From a virus, in IMG/VR virus record IMGVR_UViG_3300005935_000140, positions 1 through 24,023 of that record: a stretch of 24,023 nt of DNA; one strand, written 5' to 3'. The notes beneath the pieces were generated by a model. That model was given only the letters and a program-made list of their open reading frames with translations. It did no database searches and was not told where the DNA came from. Below, piece by piece: positions 2,436-8,006 of the stretch. The position numbers and the translations under genes were made by a program. How positions within the stretch are numbered: the stretch's first letter is position 1; every line of letters begins with the position of its first letter.

Positions 2436-3017
2436 CTATGCTAAGTGTTTACCCTCTACGCCACGTTTTTCTCTGTTCTTTGTTCTTTCGTTAAGCCACA
2501 TCAATGCTTCCTCCATTTTAATAATTGCATTTTTATTTTCTCTACAAGTAAAACGAGAGTTTAAATTTTTCAGCCTTTCGATAGATATCTTTAACATTTC
2601 TTCGAGAGTTGTACCGTTATCATAAGAACCGTCATCGTTTAATTTATAGAAAGTTACTTTTTGAAATTTCTGAGTTCCCTCTTTATCTTCGGGACTAGAA
2701 AAATCTCGCTTGAATTGCATTAAAGCATATTCATTTACTTCTTCTGTTTTTTTTGGCTCTACCATTTGTTTATGATTATTAAATAAACTAATAAATTTGT
2801 CTGCTTCCATACGATCGTTCTCTTTTTCTTCTTCATCTAATTCTGTGTAAGGAGTGTTCATTTGTCTTTTTAAAGCTAAATAATAGTTTAAATTAATTAT
2901 TTTTCCTCCTCCATCTTTATCTCTACATTGACTAAACAAATATTTCATCCACCCAGACCATTGCTCATGGCAAAGTGAAGCCAATCTCTCTCTATAAATT
3001 TTTTCAACTTCTGTCAT
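2436..3017 (-). CDS. HEQWSGWM-domain protein with Acb2/Tad1-like C-terminal hairpin (candidate cyclic-nucleotide sponge)
   Basis: I place the start at ATG 3017, four bases after the GroEL stop and behind UAGGGA. The frame also opens upstream at a TTG inside GroEL. The 193-aa product has two recognisable ends. Residues 1-80 (HEQWSGWMKYLF at 17-28, MNTPYTELDEEEKENDR around 53-69) match an uncharacterised domain widespread in phages. Residues about 137-190 (EEMLKISIERLKNL, CRENKNAIIKMEEALMWLNER, RGVEGKH) match the helical-hairpin pattern I associate with Acb2/Tad1-type proteins. Acb2 binds CBASS cyclic nucleotides, and some relatives bind the Thoeris signal gcADPR, blocking abortive infection. 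The middle (85-135) is polar and probably a linker. The Acb2 link is from memory and needs a profile or structure search; without it the protein is a conserved phage hypothetical. Confidence 0.6.
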   Translation of the reverse strand: MTEVEKIYRERLASLCHEQWSGWMKYLFSQCRDKDGGGKIINLNYYLALKRQMNTPYTELDEEEKENDRMEADKFISLFNNHKQMVEPKKTEEVNEYALMQFKRDFSSPEDKEGTQKFQKVTFYKLNDDGSYDNGTTLEEMLKISIERLKNLNSRFTCRENKNAIIKMEEALMWLNERTKNREKRGVEGKHLA

Positions 3018-3021
3018 ATAT

Positions 3022-4545
3022 TTATTCCCTAACAATTGGCGGTTTCTTCTCTGCCTCTACTAACATGCCACAGCTAGTTACTAATACTGAGGCGATTGAT
3101 ACTGCGCTCTCAACTCCTGCTAAAAGCGTTTCTGATGGGTCTATAACGCCAACCTCCATGTATCCTCCTATTTTTCCTGTAACAACGTTCTCAGCTGAGT
3201 TGGGCTCTAATTCTATCTCATCTAATCCCATGTTATCCCTTAATTGTCTTGCTGGATATTGTAATGCCTCATTTAAAAGCTGGCTACTTGTATTAATTCT
3301 AGCTAAAGCAAGTCCTGCTCCACAAACTACTCCGCTGTTGTAAGCCGCCTTTACTGAATTAACCACATCCTCAACTTTATATTTCAACGCTTTCAGTTCA
3401 TTTTCAGTAGGTGCGCCTACTTTAATTACAGCGACCTTATTCGTAAACATTGATAATCGTTTTTCTAATTCCTTTTTGATTCTCTCGCTCTCTTCTTCCT
3501 GGATATTTTTTCTCAATGCAAATATTGCAGTATCAATTGACTCTTTATCTCCTTTAGGGTCTACAACTATTGACTCGTCCCGGCGACAGATAAATTTTGC
3601 TGCCCGGCCTAAATCAGATATTTCTACATTCTCTAGCTTATCGCCTTTTGCCTCGCTAAACATTTTAGCGCCAGTTAGCATTGCTAAATCCTCTAGCCAT
3701 ATTTTATTATTCTCTCCCTTTGGCGCGTTCACTGCTACTATCAAAAATTTTCCTTGCATCTTATTAATAATAATAGTTGATAGAGCTGACTGTTCTACTC
3801 CCTCGGCAATAATAACCAATTCTTTTTTATTGTCCTTTGACATTTTCTCCATTAACTTTATAACATCATTGACCTCTGTCATCCGGTAATCAGTTATTAA
3901 AATATAAGGCTTTTCTAAAACAGTTTCCATTCGCTCCGGATTGATTATCATGTACGGACTGATGTATCCGTTTTCTACTTTGATACCGTCAGTCATCTCT
4001 GTTGTCGTTTGCATTGTTGGTGACCTGTCAATGGTTATCACCCCGTCTTTTCCTATTTTGCTGTAGAGCTCGGCAATCATCTCGGCAATTTTTTCGTTAT
4101 CAAATGACACCATGGCCACTTTTTTTAAATCTTCCTTACTTTCAATCGGAGTAGTCATTTCTTTAATCTGTTTTTTGACATCTTCTAATCCAGCCACTAA
4201 TTCTTTTTCTACTTTTCTGCCATCTCGTTTTCTATGAGATACCTGGTCAATAATTGCCTGTAGCATAATTAGTGAGCTGGTAGTTCCATCACCAACTCTG
4301 TCATTCGTTCTAACCGCTACCTCTCTTATAACTTGAACGATTGCATTCTCGGCTGGGTCTGGTAGTTCAAAGTCACGCGCTATTTGTACGCCGTCATCAA
4401 CTATCATTCTGTATGGAATTTTAGAAATAACTACTTTGTTATTTGCTGGACCATAAGTCGGTTTAATAAAATCAACCATCTGATCAACTGCTGACTTTAT
4501 AGTTTCAAATGTTTTGTCCTTAACGATTTTTACTTCTGTACTCAT
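3022..4545 (-). CDS. groEL: Phage-encoded GroEL-type chaperonin (Hsp60)
   Basis: The 507-aa product is a group I chaperonin subunit, expected to form ring oligomers that fold proteins in the cytoplasm with ATP and the GroES lid. Hallmarks seen are KPTYGPANNKVVIS (28-41, the TLGP phosphate-loop region), DDGV with Asp51 (equivalent of E. coli Asp52), GDGTTS at 85-90 (Asp86, equivalent of Asp87), and VEDVVNSVKAA with Asp393 (equivalent of Asp398). All acidic residues needed for ATP hydrolysis are therefore present. It is about 40 residues shorter than bacterial GroEL and lacks the GGM-repeat tail, ending EKKPPIVRE. It lies four bases upstream of the Acb2-like gene and 11 bases downstream of the zinc-protein gene. 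No Shine-Dalgarno is evident. Phage GroELs in other systems fold capsid or other phage proteins; the substrate here is unknown. Confidence 0.96.
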   Translation of the reverse strand: MSTEVKIVKDKTFETIKSAVDQMVDFIKPTYGPANNKVVISKIPYRMIVDDGVQIARDFELPDPAENAIVQVIREVAVRTNDRVGDGTTSSLIMLQAIIDQVSHRKRDGRKVEKELVAGLEDVKKQIKEMTTPIESKEDLKKVAMVSFDNEKIAEMIAELYSKIGKDGVITIDRSPTMQTTTEMTDGIKVENGYISPYMIINPERMETVLEKPYILITDYRMTEVNDVIKLMEKMSKDNKKELVIIAEGVEQSALSTIIINKMQGKFLIVAVNAPKGENNKIWLEDLAMLTGAKMFSEAKGDKLENVEISDLGRAAKFICRRDESIVVDPKGDKESIDTAIFALRKNIQEEESERIKKELEKRLSMFTNKVAVIKVGAPTENELKALKYKVEDVVNSVKAAYNSGVVCGAGLALARINTSSQLLNEALQYPARQLRDNMGLDEIELEPNSAENVVTGKIGGYMEVGVIDPSETLLAGVESAVSIASVLVTSCGMLVEAEKKPPIVRE

Positions 4546-4556
4546 AATGAATTTTG

Positions 4557-4817
4557 TTAAATATTAATTATACATTTTTCCGGGTGGTAAACTTTATTAT
4601 AAATCCTTTTTGTCGCTCCACCACGCTGACAAAAATTGCGGACGTGGGCTTTTAGATATTCAACATTATCTACTCGCCCTTTGTATCCTTTGTTAAATCT
4701 AAATTTTTTATTGCAAATATTGCACCGCTCCCACTTGTATTTCTTGTTCTGATTTATTATGTGTAAATCGTGAGGGATGCCTCGGTATTTGCAACCTAGT
4801 TCGTCTGTATATCTCAT
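4557..4817 (-). CDS. Small putative zinc-binding protein between groES and groEL
   Basis: The start is ATG 4817, one base after the GroES stop and behind GAGG with 6-nt spacing; the upstream TTG at 4829 would destroy this arrangement. The 86-aa product is basic and has a CxxC knuckle (ERCNICNKKFRF), a later conserved-looking block KGRVDNVEYLKAHVRNFCQ, and YHPEKC near the end, so one zinc site built from Cys/His pairs is plausible. I have seen similar sequences in phage genomes without assigned function. Its position between the lid and barrel genes of the chaperonin, in the same operon, suggests co-expression but does not prove a chaperonin role. Confidence 0.75.
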   Translation of the reverse strand: MRYTDELGCKYRGIPHDLHIINQNKKYKWERCNICNKKFRFNKGYKGRVDNVEYLKAHVRNFCQRGGATKRIYNKVYHPEKCIINI

Positions 4818-4818
4818 A

Positions 4819-5103
4819 TTATTCCTCAATTAACGCTAATACGTCATCATCAAATAATAAAACATAATCCACTTCCTCATCGCTCTCTTTAAGACTGATT
4901 TGCTCCCCGGCAAATGCTCCGTAAATAACACGGTCATCTTTTTTAATATCGTCAATTCCCTCGCCGACTTCAATGACTGTACCCATAGCTTTTGACTCTT
5001 GCTCTACATCGTCCGGCGTGATAATCCCACTGTCGCTTACACGAGATTTTTCATCGTCCGGCTTTACTAAAACTTGTTTTTTTCTTGGTTTGATTTTAAT
5101 CAT
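4819..5103 (-). CDS. groES: Phage-encoded GroES-type co-chaperonin (Hsp10)
   Basis: The 94-aa product has the GroES fold signature: an N-terminal strand IKPRKKQVLVKPDD, a mobile-loop region with SDSGIITPDDVEQES (hydrophobic IIT at the GroEL-binding position), a GTVIEVGEG turn followed by a KKDDRVIYGAFAG strand, and the terminal DDDVLALIEE, which matches the ESDILAIVE-type ending of GroES. Length is normal for the family. It would cap the GroEL encoded two genes downstream. It has an A/T-rich leader without a Shine-Dalgarno. Having both subunits in one phage operon implies a self-sufficient chaperonin rather than dependence on the host lid. Confidence 0.95.
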   Translation of the reverse strand: MIKIKPRKKQVLVKPDDEKSRVSDSGIITPDDVEQESKAMGTVIEVGEGIDDIKKDDRVIYGAFAGEQISLKESDEEVDYVLLFDDDVLALIEE

Positions 5104-7395: not shown

Positions 7396-7665
7396 CTACT
7401 TTAAAATTTCCATGACTTCATCTATCCCACCTAAAATATACATCCCTCCGTTAGCCTCCCAGTCCTCTTGAAACTCTTTCTGTCTTTTGCTCTGCTTGCC
7501 GTCCTTGGCTTTCACCTCTATTTGTATAACTTGTCCGTCTTTTATCACTGTGAGGTCAGCTAAGCCGGCAAAACAGCCTAGTCCAGCAAGGTTGTGGTAG
7601 TAAAAAACTCCCTTAAATTTTAGATATTCTTTTATTGATTTTTTTTCGCATGCTTCTGGAGTCAT
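7396..7665 (-). CDS. VRR-NUC domain nuclease
   Basis: The 89-aa product is a minimal VRR-NUC (PD-(D/E)XK-like) nuclease. It has an N-terminal helix (EACEKKSIKEYLKFKG), the GLADLTV strand with Asp37, the catalytic IEVK with Glu50 and Lys52, and the conserved KQSKRQKEFQ helix. The usual length of stand-alone phage members is 90-110 aa. Relatives cut structured DNA, such as Holliday junction or flap substrates, in replication and recombination. It overlaps the 3' end of the preceding basic protein gene by 53 bp. Confidence 0.88.
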   Translation of the reverse strand: MTPEACEKKSIKEYLKFKGVFYYHNLAGLGCFAGLADLTVIKDGQVIQIEVKAKDGKQSKRQKEFQEDWEANGGMYILGGIDEVMEILK

Positions 7666-7858
7666 GTAGATTTTTAATGTTAGTTATATTATTTTTTATT
7701 CCGTTTAATTTTATTCGTTCTTTTTTCGCTTGGAATTCATATGTGCCTTTAATTTGACTTTTGCCACCTGGGTTATTTCTCCCCTGCTTGCTCCTGTGAT
7801 CACGGTGCTGTCTGTGGCCGAGTTCCTTGTAAAAGGTCTTTACACTACGCGCTGGCAT
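7613..7858 (-). CDS. Small basic phage protein (possible)
   Basis: Starting at ATG 7858, inside the last 14 bases of the small membrane-protein gene, the frame encodes 81 residues rich in His, Arg and Lys (KTFYKELGHRQHRDHRSKQ, then RNNPGGKSQIKGTYEFQAKK). The composition suggests nucleic-acid binding. The final 17 codons overlap the VRR-NUC gene in another frame. There is no good Shine-Dalgarno, only GGA about 11 bases upstream. I regard it as probably real because the region would otherwise be an unexplained gap and the central GGKSQIKGTYEF block looks like a conserved motif. Confidence 0.55.
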   Translation of the reverse strand: MPARSVKTFYKELGHRQHRDHRSKQGRNNPGGKSQIKGTYEFQAKKERIKLNGIKNNITNIKNLHDSRSMRKKINKRISKI

Positions 7859-8006
7859 ATAGTAAGTATCCAAACCTTGCCATGAGATAAATACCAAATG
7901 CTATTACTAGAAAAGCATCGAATCTATTTTTTACTATATTCTCATGAGTATTTATGTAAATAACTGATGATAATAATGCGATTGCAATAATTGTTGCTTC
8001 AAACAT
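7845..8006 (-). CDS. Small two-helix membrane protein (53 aa)
   Basis: The frame from ATG 8006 to TAG 7847-7845 encodes MFEATIIAIALLSSVIYI, a short charged loop (NTHENIVKNRFD), and AFLVIAFGIYLMARFGYLLY, giving two transmembrane helices at about 3-18 and 31-50. It begins four bases after the initiator gene stop and overlaps the next small gene. Two-helix phage proteins of this size include accessory lysis, exclusion and membrane-tethering factors, and nothing here tells which. Confidence 0.6.
   Translation of the reverse strand: MFEATIIAIALLSSVIYINTHENIVKNRFDAFLVIAFGIYLMARFGYLLYASA

Follow-up and report, generated by a model that had tools for sequence, protein, structure and literature searches.

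The locus and its gene

The window considered here is the whole 24,023-nucleotide stretch of IMG/VR virus record IMGVR_UViG_3300005935_000140. It carries, on the minus strand, a pair of chaperonin genes followed by a gene whose product joins two domains. The groEL (Cpn60) gene (3022..4545; PF00118, E=6e-30) lies directly upstream of this fusion gene, and groES (Cpn10; 4819..5103; PF00166, E=3e-15) lies further upstream, also on the minus strand. The fusion gene (2436..3017, minus strand) starts with ATG 4 nt after the groEL stop codon, encodes 193 amino acids, and has an AGGGA-like ribosome site that overlaps the end of groEL. An ORF beside the chaperonin had been reported here in the initial annotation, which quoted two stretches of its product, HEQWSGWM and CRENKNAIIKMEEALMWLNER...RGVEGKH; the gene does lie there and both stretches are present. 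The same annotation had spoken of a CPR phage, a label that is unsupported, as evidence neither for nor against a CPR host was found.

The product consists of an N-terminal RyR Repeat12/RyDEP-like domain with a linker (aa 1-84; 2766..3017, minus strand) and a C-terminal Tad1 domain that begins at an internal methionine, M85 (aa 85-193; 2439..2765, minus strand). At positions 1-340 of the window, a small-terminase-like gene is truncated with a repeated stretch; in another contig (L002:7750-8301) this gene forms an intact ORF of 183 aa. Either misassembly of the contig end or a repeat variant is the probable reason.

The N-terminal RyR domain

In phages such as Microcystis phage LMM01, the HEQWSGWM family goes under the label 'hypothetical', and its domain had been called uncharacterised. 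It is, however, a divergent RyR Repeat12/RyDEP-type domain. The Pfam RyR family PF02026 is matched by 14 of 17 HEQWSGWM relatives (best E-value 2.5e-5) with no competing Pfam family, and a profile made from the relatives picks RyR chains from the PDB, BtRyR and a human chimera of it, at E-values of 3e-7 to 2e-3. The window protein itself stays under the PF02026 cut-off of 27.4 bits, both as a whole (E=0.71, 10.6 bits) and when the domain alone is searched (E=0.0084, 16.8 bits). When 84,980 bacterial and archaeal genomes were searched for the HEQWSGW pattern, none yielded a confirmed relative.

Two structure models were made, with one half of the protein aligned in each, because a combined MAFFT alignment of RyR, Tad1, and fusion sequences stacked both families on the C-terminus. 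In the model built with 37 RyR-type rows, the N-terminal helices have pLDDT values of 94-98. Comparison of aa 1-85 of this model by VIA-align gives Z 6.7 for Bacteroides thetaiotaomicron RyR (29% identity, 69 residues) and again Z 6.7 for human RyR3, and numerous independent RyR entries are found among the high-ranking matches. A Z of 6.7 is nevertheless below 8 and within the range of chance helical matches, so that sequence evidence is needed as well; furthermore, the RyR E-values obtained when the whole model is searched with Foldseek are weak (1.9-7.5). The RyR assignment draws jointly on VIA-align, Pfam, and the conserved residues. An hhalign comparison of the family with RyDEP as a single sequence did not reach significance with either a smaller or a larger alignment, but the larger one places H17 and W20 in register with RyDEP H75 and W78, whereas the smaller does not.

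RyR domains also occur in other settings among the phage contigs. Two ORFs of about 1,300 aa (L094:950-5014 and L077:3649-7563) hold, in one frame, a D12 DNA methyltransferase, a DHH phosphoesterase-like part, a RyR domain, and an XkdF-type protease; each may be a polyprotein. On each of two phage contigs, a pair of distinct RyR-domain genes lies no more than a few kb apart (L020:110-370 and 4791-5069; L060:5752-6219 and 7453-7902). At L029:4191-5438, a WDGH domain (PF25311, E=3e-39) precedes a RyR domain fused to it, and the start of the protein is HAD-type phosphatase-like.

Conservation of the RyDEP ligand residues

RyDEP is a mycobacteriophage RyR-domain protein, described in a 2026 preprint, that cleaves 2'/3'cADPR (PMC13232231). 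It is a homodimer in which H75 and D117 form the catalytic pair, W78 stacks on the adenine, and H100 lies on the phosphates (PMC13232231). These positions were confirmed in the sequence of DyoEdafos gp78. In the window protein, the counterpart of H75-x-x-W78 is H17-x-x-W20, and that of H100...P105...D117 is R51...P56...D68; inside each block the residues are spaced identically. When conservation was counted over 64 relatives, H17 (codon 2967..2969) and W20 (codon 2958..2960) were each present in 62/62 ungapped relatives and D68 (codon 2814..2816) in 63/64; all of these codons, like that of R51 (2865..2867), are on the minus strand. As aligned, then, the letters of the family signature, HEQWSGWM...EKxxDR, include the RyDEP active-site positions. 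The position of the phosphate-binding H100 is held by arginine in 55/64 relatives and by histidine in 2/64. The window protein departs from its own family at two further residues, R48A and W49L (R in 58/64 and W in 59/64 relatives), and the activity of its RyR half is less certain for that reason.

RyDEP (DyoEdafos gp78) and the phage RyR-domain sponges of PF02026 thus share with the fusion a predicted RyR Repeat12 fold, and the H75/W78/D117 set is matched by H17/W20/D68. Unlike RyDEP, the fusion is too divergent for the Pfam cut-off, carries R51 in place of H100, and is joined to Tad1, whereas RyDEP is free-standing and lies inside a NARP1 operon. Presence of the catalytic dyad, as H17/D68, would suit a RyR half that is an active glycosidase, with Tad1 capturing cADPR and RyR destroying it. 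Against this, among eight other RyDEP homologues, chosen one per major branch, none cleaved the signals, though six bound them (PMC13232231); in addition, the H100 position is changed, and none of the NARP1 partner genes was noted in the window. A general link between RyR and NAD-recycling NARP1 is likewise not found, since NAMPT/NAPRTase occurs in only 1/50 RyR contigs, about 16 kb away. We regard an active glycosidase as unlikely, although it is a reading to be kept in mind. It is similarly doubtful that the Tad1 half concentrates both cADPR and CBASS signals and hands the cADPR to an attached RyR glycosidase for destruction.

It could be argued instead that the Tad1 half alone acts on immune signals, with the RyR half as a passenger that has degenerated or plays a structural part, serving in dimerisation, in stability, or in binding ATP/ADP like the animal RyR Repeat12. 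The loss of R48 and W49, which are kept in about 90% of the family, would be in keeping with such a passenger, as would the animal RyR Repeat12 structures solved with adenine nucleotides (as given in PDB entry titles) and the fact that free-standing Tad1 relatives, such as SBSphiJ7 Tad1, function without a RyR domain. However, the ligand and catalytic positions H17, W20, and D68 are all retained, and RyR and tad1 are paired in several separate lineages (see below); a mere passenger is therefore improbable.

The C-terminal Tad1 domain

The initial annotation had limited the sponge-like region to the C-terminal 55 residues, but the Tad1 region is twice as long: aa 85-193 make up a whole Tad1 domain of about 109 residues, with both its beta strands and its helical hairpin. 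The similarity to Tad1 greatly exceeds that expected by chance. A phmmer search of the protein against PDB sequences finds CmTad1 (8kbb) at E=3e-9 and CbTad1 at about 3e-7. A profile from ten relatives matches the solved Tad1 structures at E=1e-22, PHROG 2428 matches the protein at 4.4e-21, and the annotated Tad1 of SBSphiJ7 is listed first among the isolate matches. The proposed check against PF24729 gave a match (E=0.006), but its 17.2 bits fall below the Pfam cut-off of 27; PF24729 is a hairpin family that covers only part of the Tad1 domain.

The predicted fold agrees. In the AlphaFold2 model, aa 94-193 align to residues 28-124 of CbTad1 with Z 8.9 over 92 residues and a Foldseek E-value of 6.7e-5. 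The helical hairpin (aa 138-185; 2463..2606, minus strand) has a pLDDT of 91-97 over most of its length and, as had been anticipated, superposes on that of Tad1 (7uav), with an rmsd of 1.0 over 50 residues at 40% identity. In the model made with the RyR rows, aa 137-186 also fall on Tad1 (VIA-align Z 6.9, rmsd 1.0). The beta part, with strands at aa 96-99 and 119-122, is modelled at low confidence (pLDDT about 60).

Like the known Tad1 proteins (SBSphiJ7 Tad1; CbTad1, 7UAV/7UAW/8KBF; CmTad1, 8KBB), the fusion has the whole domain, strands and hairpin, and the conserved C-terminal tail RGVEG, with 29-41% identity over the aligned structure; unlike them, it has an additional N-terminal RyR domain. 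Across twenty Tad1 rows, E160, R178, R182, R185, V187, E188, and G189 are invariant. The CbTad1 pocket, which we take to be lined by F82, N92, R109, and R113, has its equivalents here in L152, N161, R178, and R182. The fusion's Tad1 is a member of a short-beta subfamily in which L152 replaces the phenylalanine of SBSphiJ7 Tad1 and CbTad1, and its ligand preference may therefore differ.

The earlier suggestion of an Acb2/Tad1-like sponge was right as to the clan and the fusion, but the domain is specifically Tad1. The hairpin falls in the Pfam family that Acb2 and Tad1 share, as would be expected of an Acb2-type CBASS sponge. However, in Acb2, which binds CBASS nucleotides, a single short helix precedes the hairpin (PMC12043709), and the Tad1 beta part is missing. 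Here, N-terminal beta strands accompany the hairpin, which is why the domain is assigned to Tad1 rather than to Acb2; furthermore, the match covers the greater part of Tad1, and no Acb2 entry in the PDB was matched by sequence. An Acb2-type sponge is thus very improbable.

A Tad1 relative (63% identity) is encoded at L310:2656-2895, on a contig that binning assigned to a Lokiarchaeota MAG. That contig is most likely a phage contig inside the Lokiarchaeota bin.

The junction and the pairing of tad1 with RyR

The nearest Tad1 to aa 85-193 is a free-standing protein (L004, 78% identical), and another free-standing Tad1 (L005) is 62% identical. Both genes differ from the fusion in having their own start codon and no RyR domain, and that start codon aligns with the fusion's internal M85. 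An internal start at M85, which would give free Tad1, was considered, but no ribosome site is seen upstream of it; probably, then, only the fused form is made. Like the fusion gene, the L004 tad1 gene lies behind groEL and groES (L004:873-3355). The GroEL proteins of L004 and the window are only 28% identical, though the Tad1 domains are about 78% identical, as if tad1 had moved between chaperonin loci.

The same 193-aa ORF, 100% identical, is present on three more IMG/VR contigs from different metagenome datasets, which match the window at 99.97-99.98% DNA identity across this region and have the same in-frame junction; a frameshift, chimera, or local error is consequently unlikely. An artefact of assembly or sequencing that joined two neighbouring genes, as the free-standing state of the closest Tad1 relatives and the misassembled look of the first 340 or so bases of the window might suggest, is largely refuted by this agreement among four contigs (at least 99.97% over the region, with the in-frame junction common to all) and by the absence of a stop codon, a gap, or a ribosome site ahead of M85, and we give it scarcely any credence.

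The pairing of the two domains recurs outside the window. In L085 and L086, which represent one phage species, the tad1 stop and the RyR start overlap by 1 nt; in L037, the two genes are about 0.7 kb apart; and in G068, they are on the same contig, about 9 kb apart. The window, L085/L086, L037, and G068 count as four separate cases in both domain trees, which are built from few columns. At the level of contigs, a strong tad1 match occurs in 3/50 RyR contigs (two species) versus 1/50 random viral contigs, and RyR in 2/50 tad1 contigs versus 0/50 random viral contigs. This excess is small and not convincing alone, so the weight is placed on the fusion and the overlapping gene pair rather than on the counts. 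No phage isolate with both halves was found at the sensitivity of tblastn.

A model for the function of the fusion

Taken together, these results have led to the hypothesis that the fusion is a two-module counter-defence protein, a two-site sink for Thoeris signals, a reading to which we assign a probability of roughly 0.7 on the basis of the sequence comparisons and the models. The analysis shows what the two domains are, from sequence and predicted fold, along with the kept RyDEP catalytic and ligand residues, the junction, and the recurrent tad1-RyR pairing, whereas for this protein we infer ligand binding, an oligomeric state, and anti-Thoeris activity. The C-terminal half would form the usual Tad1 oligomer and trap 2'/3'cADPR (gcADPR), the product of Thoeris TIR proteins; it probably binds CBASS cyclic tri- and dinucleotides too. 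The N-terminal RyR/RyDEP-type domains would pair across protomers, and the same cADPR signals would thereby find a second pocket, one of unrelated fold. There, the RyR half would more likely sequester cADPR and less likely hydrolyse it to ADPR; a double sponge is expected because most tested RyR relatives only bind, although cleavage is possible.

Tad1 is reported to assemble from three dimers into a hexamer that offers six pockets for gcADPR or dinucleotides as well as two sites for trinucleotides (PMC12043709). In the fusion, the Tad1 dimers could hold RyR domains together in pairs by way of a linker some 10 residues long, and the resulting particle would have two unrelated kinds of cADPR pocket in addition to the Tad1 trinucleotide sites. 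Placing both modules on one chain would provide more local signal-binding sites and widen the range of signals removed.

Implications for phage counter-defence

The Tad1 and RyR modules are each known already. If the two-site reading holds, the protein would be the earliest case known to us in which two unrelated phage families directed against the same immune signal are fused. In the literature searched, which takes in a minority of subscription papers, no description of a Tad1-RyR fusion was found and no Acb2 fusion of such a kind is described, and the RyDEP preprint (PMC13232231) has no mention of Tad1. Other phages use a Tad1 sponge and a RyR/RyDEP domain as separate proteins against the Thoeris signal (PMC13232231, PMC12043709), and two phage RyDEP homologues tested in vivo both protected phage (PMC13232231).

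That the fusion might give a hint to the function of the HEQWSGWM domain had been proposed, and the hint now points to cADPR binding or cleavage of the RyDEP type. If the two-site reading is true, the action of phage RyR domains on Thoeris signals would gain support from genomes, obtained independently of the biochemical work on RyDEP. The fusion would also give the HEQWSGWM family a testable function and supply a ready construct for asking whether a sponge and an enzyme cooperate. Should the Tad1 half instead capture the signal for destruction by the RyR half, the HEQWSGWM proteins of many phages would be an unrecognised anti-Thoeris branch of the RyR family.
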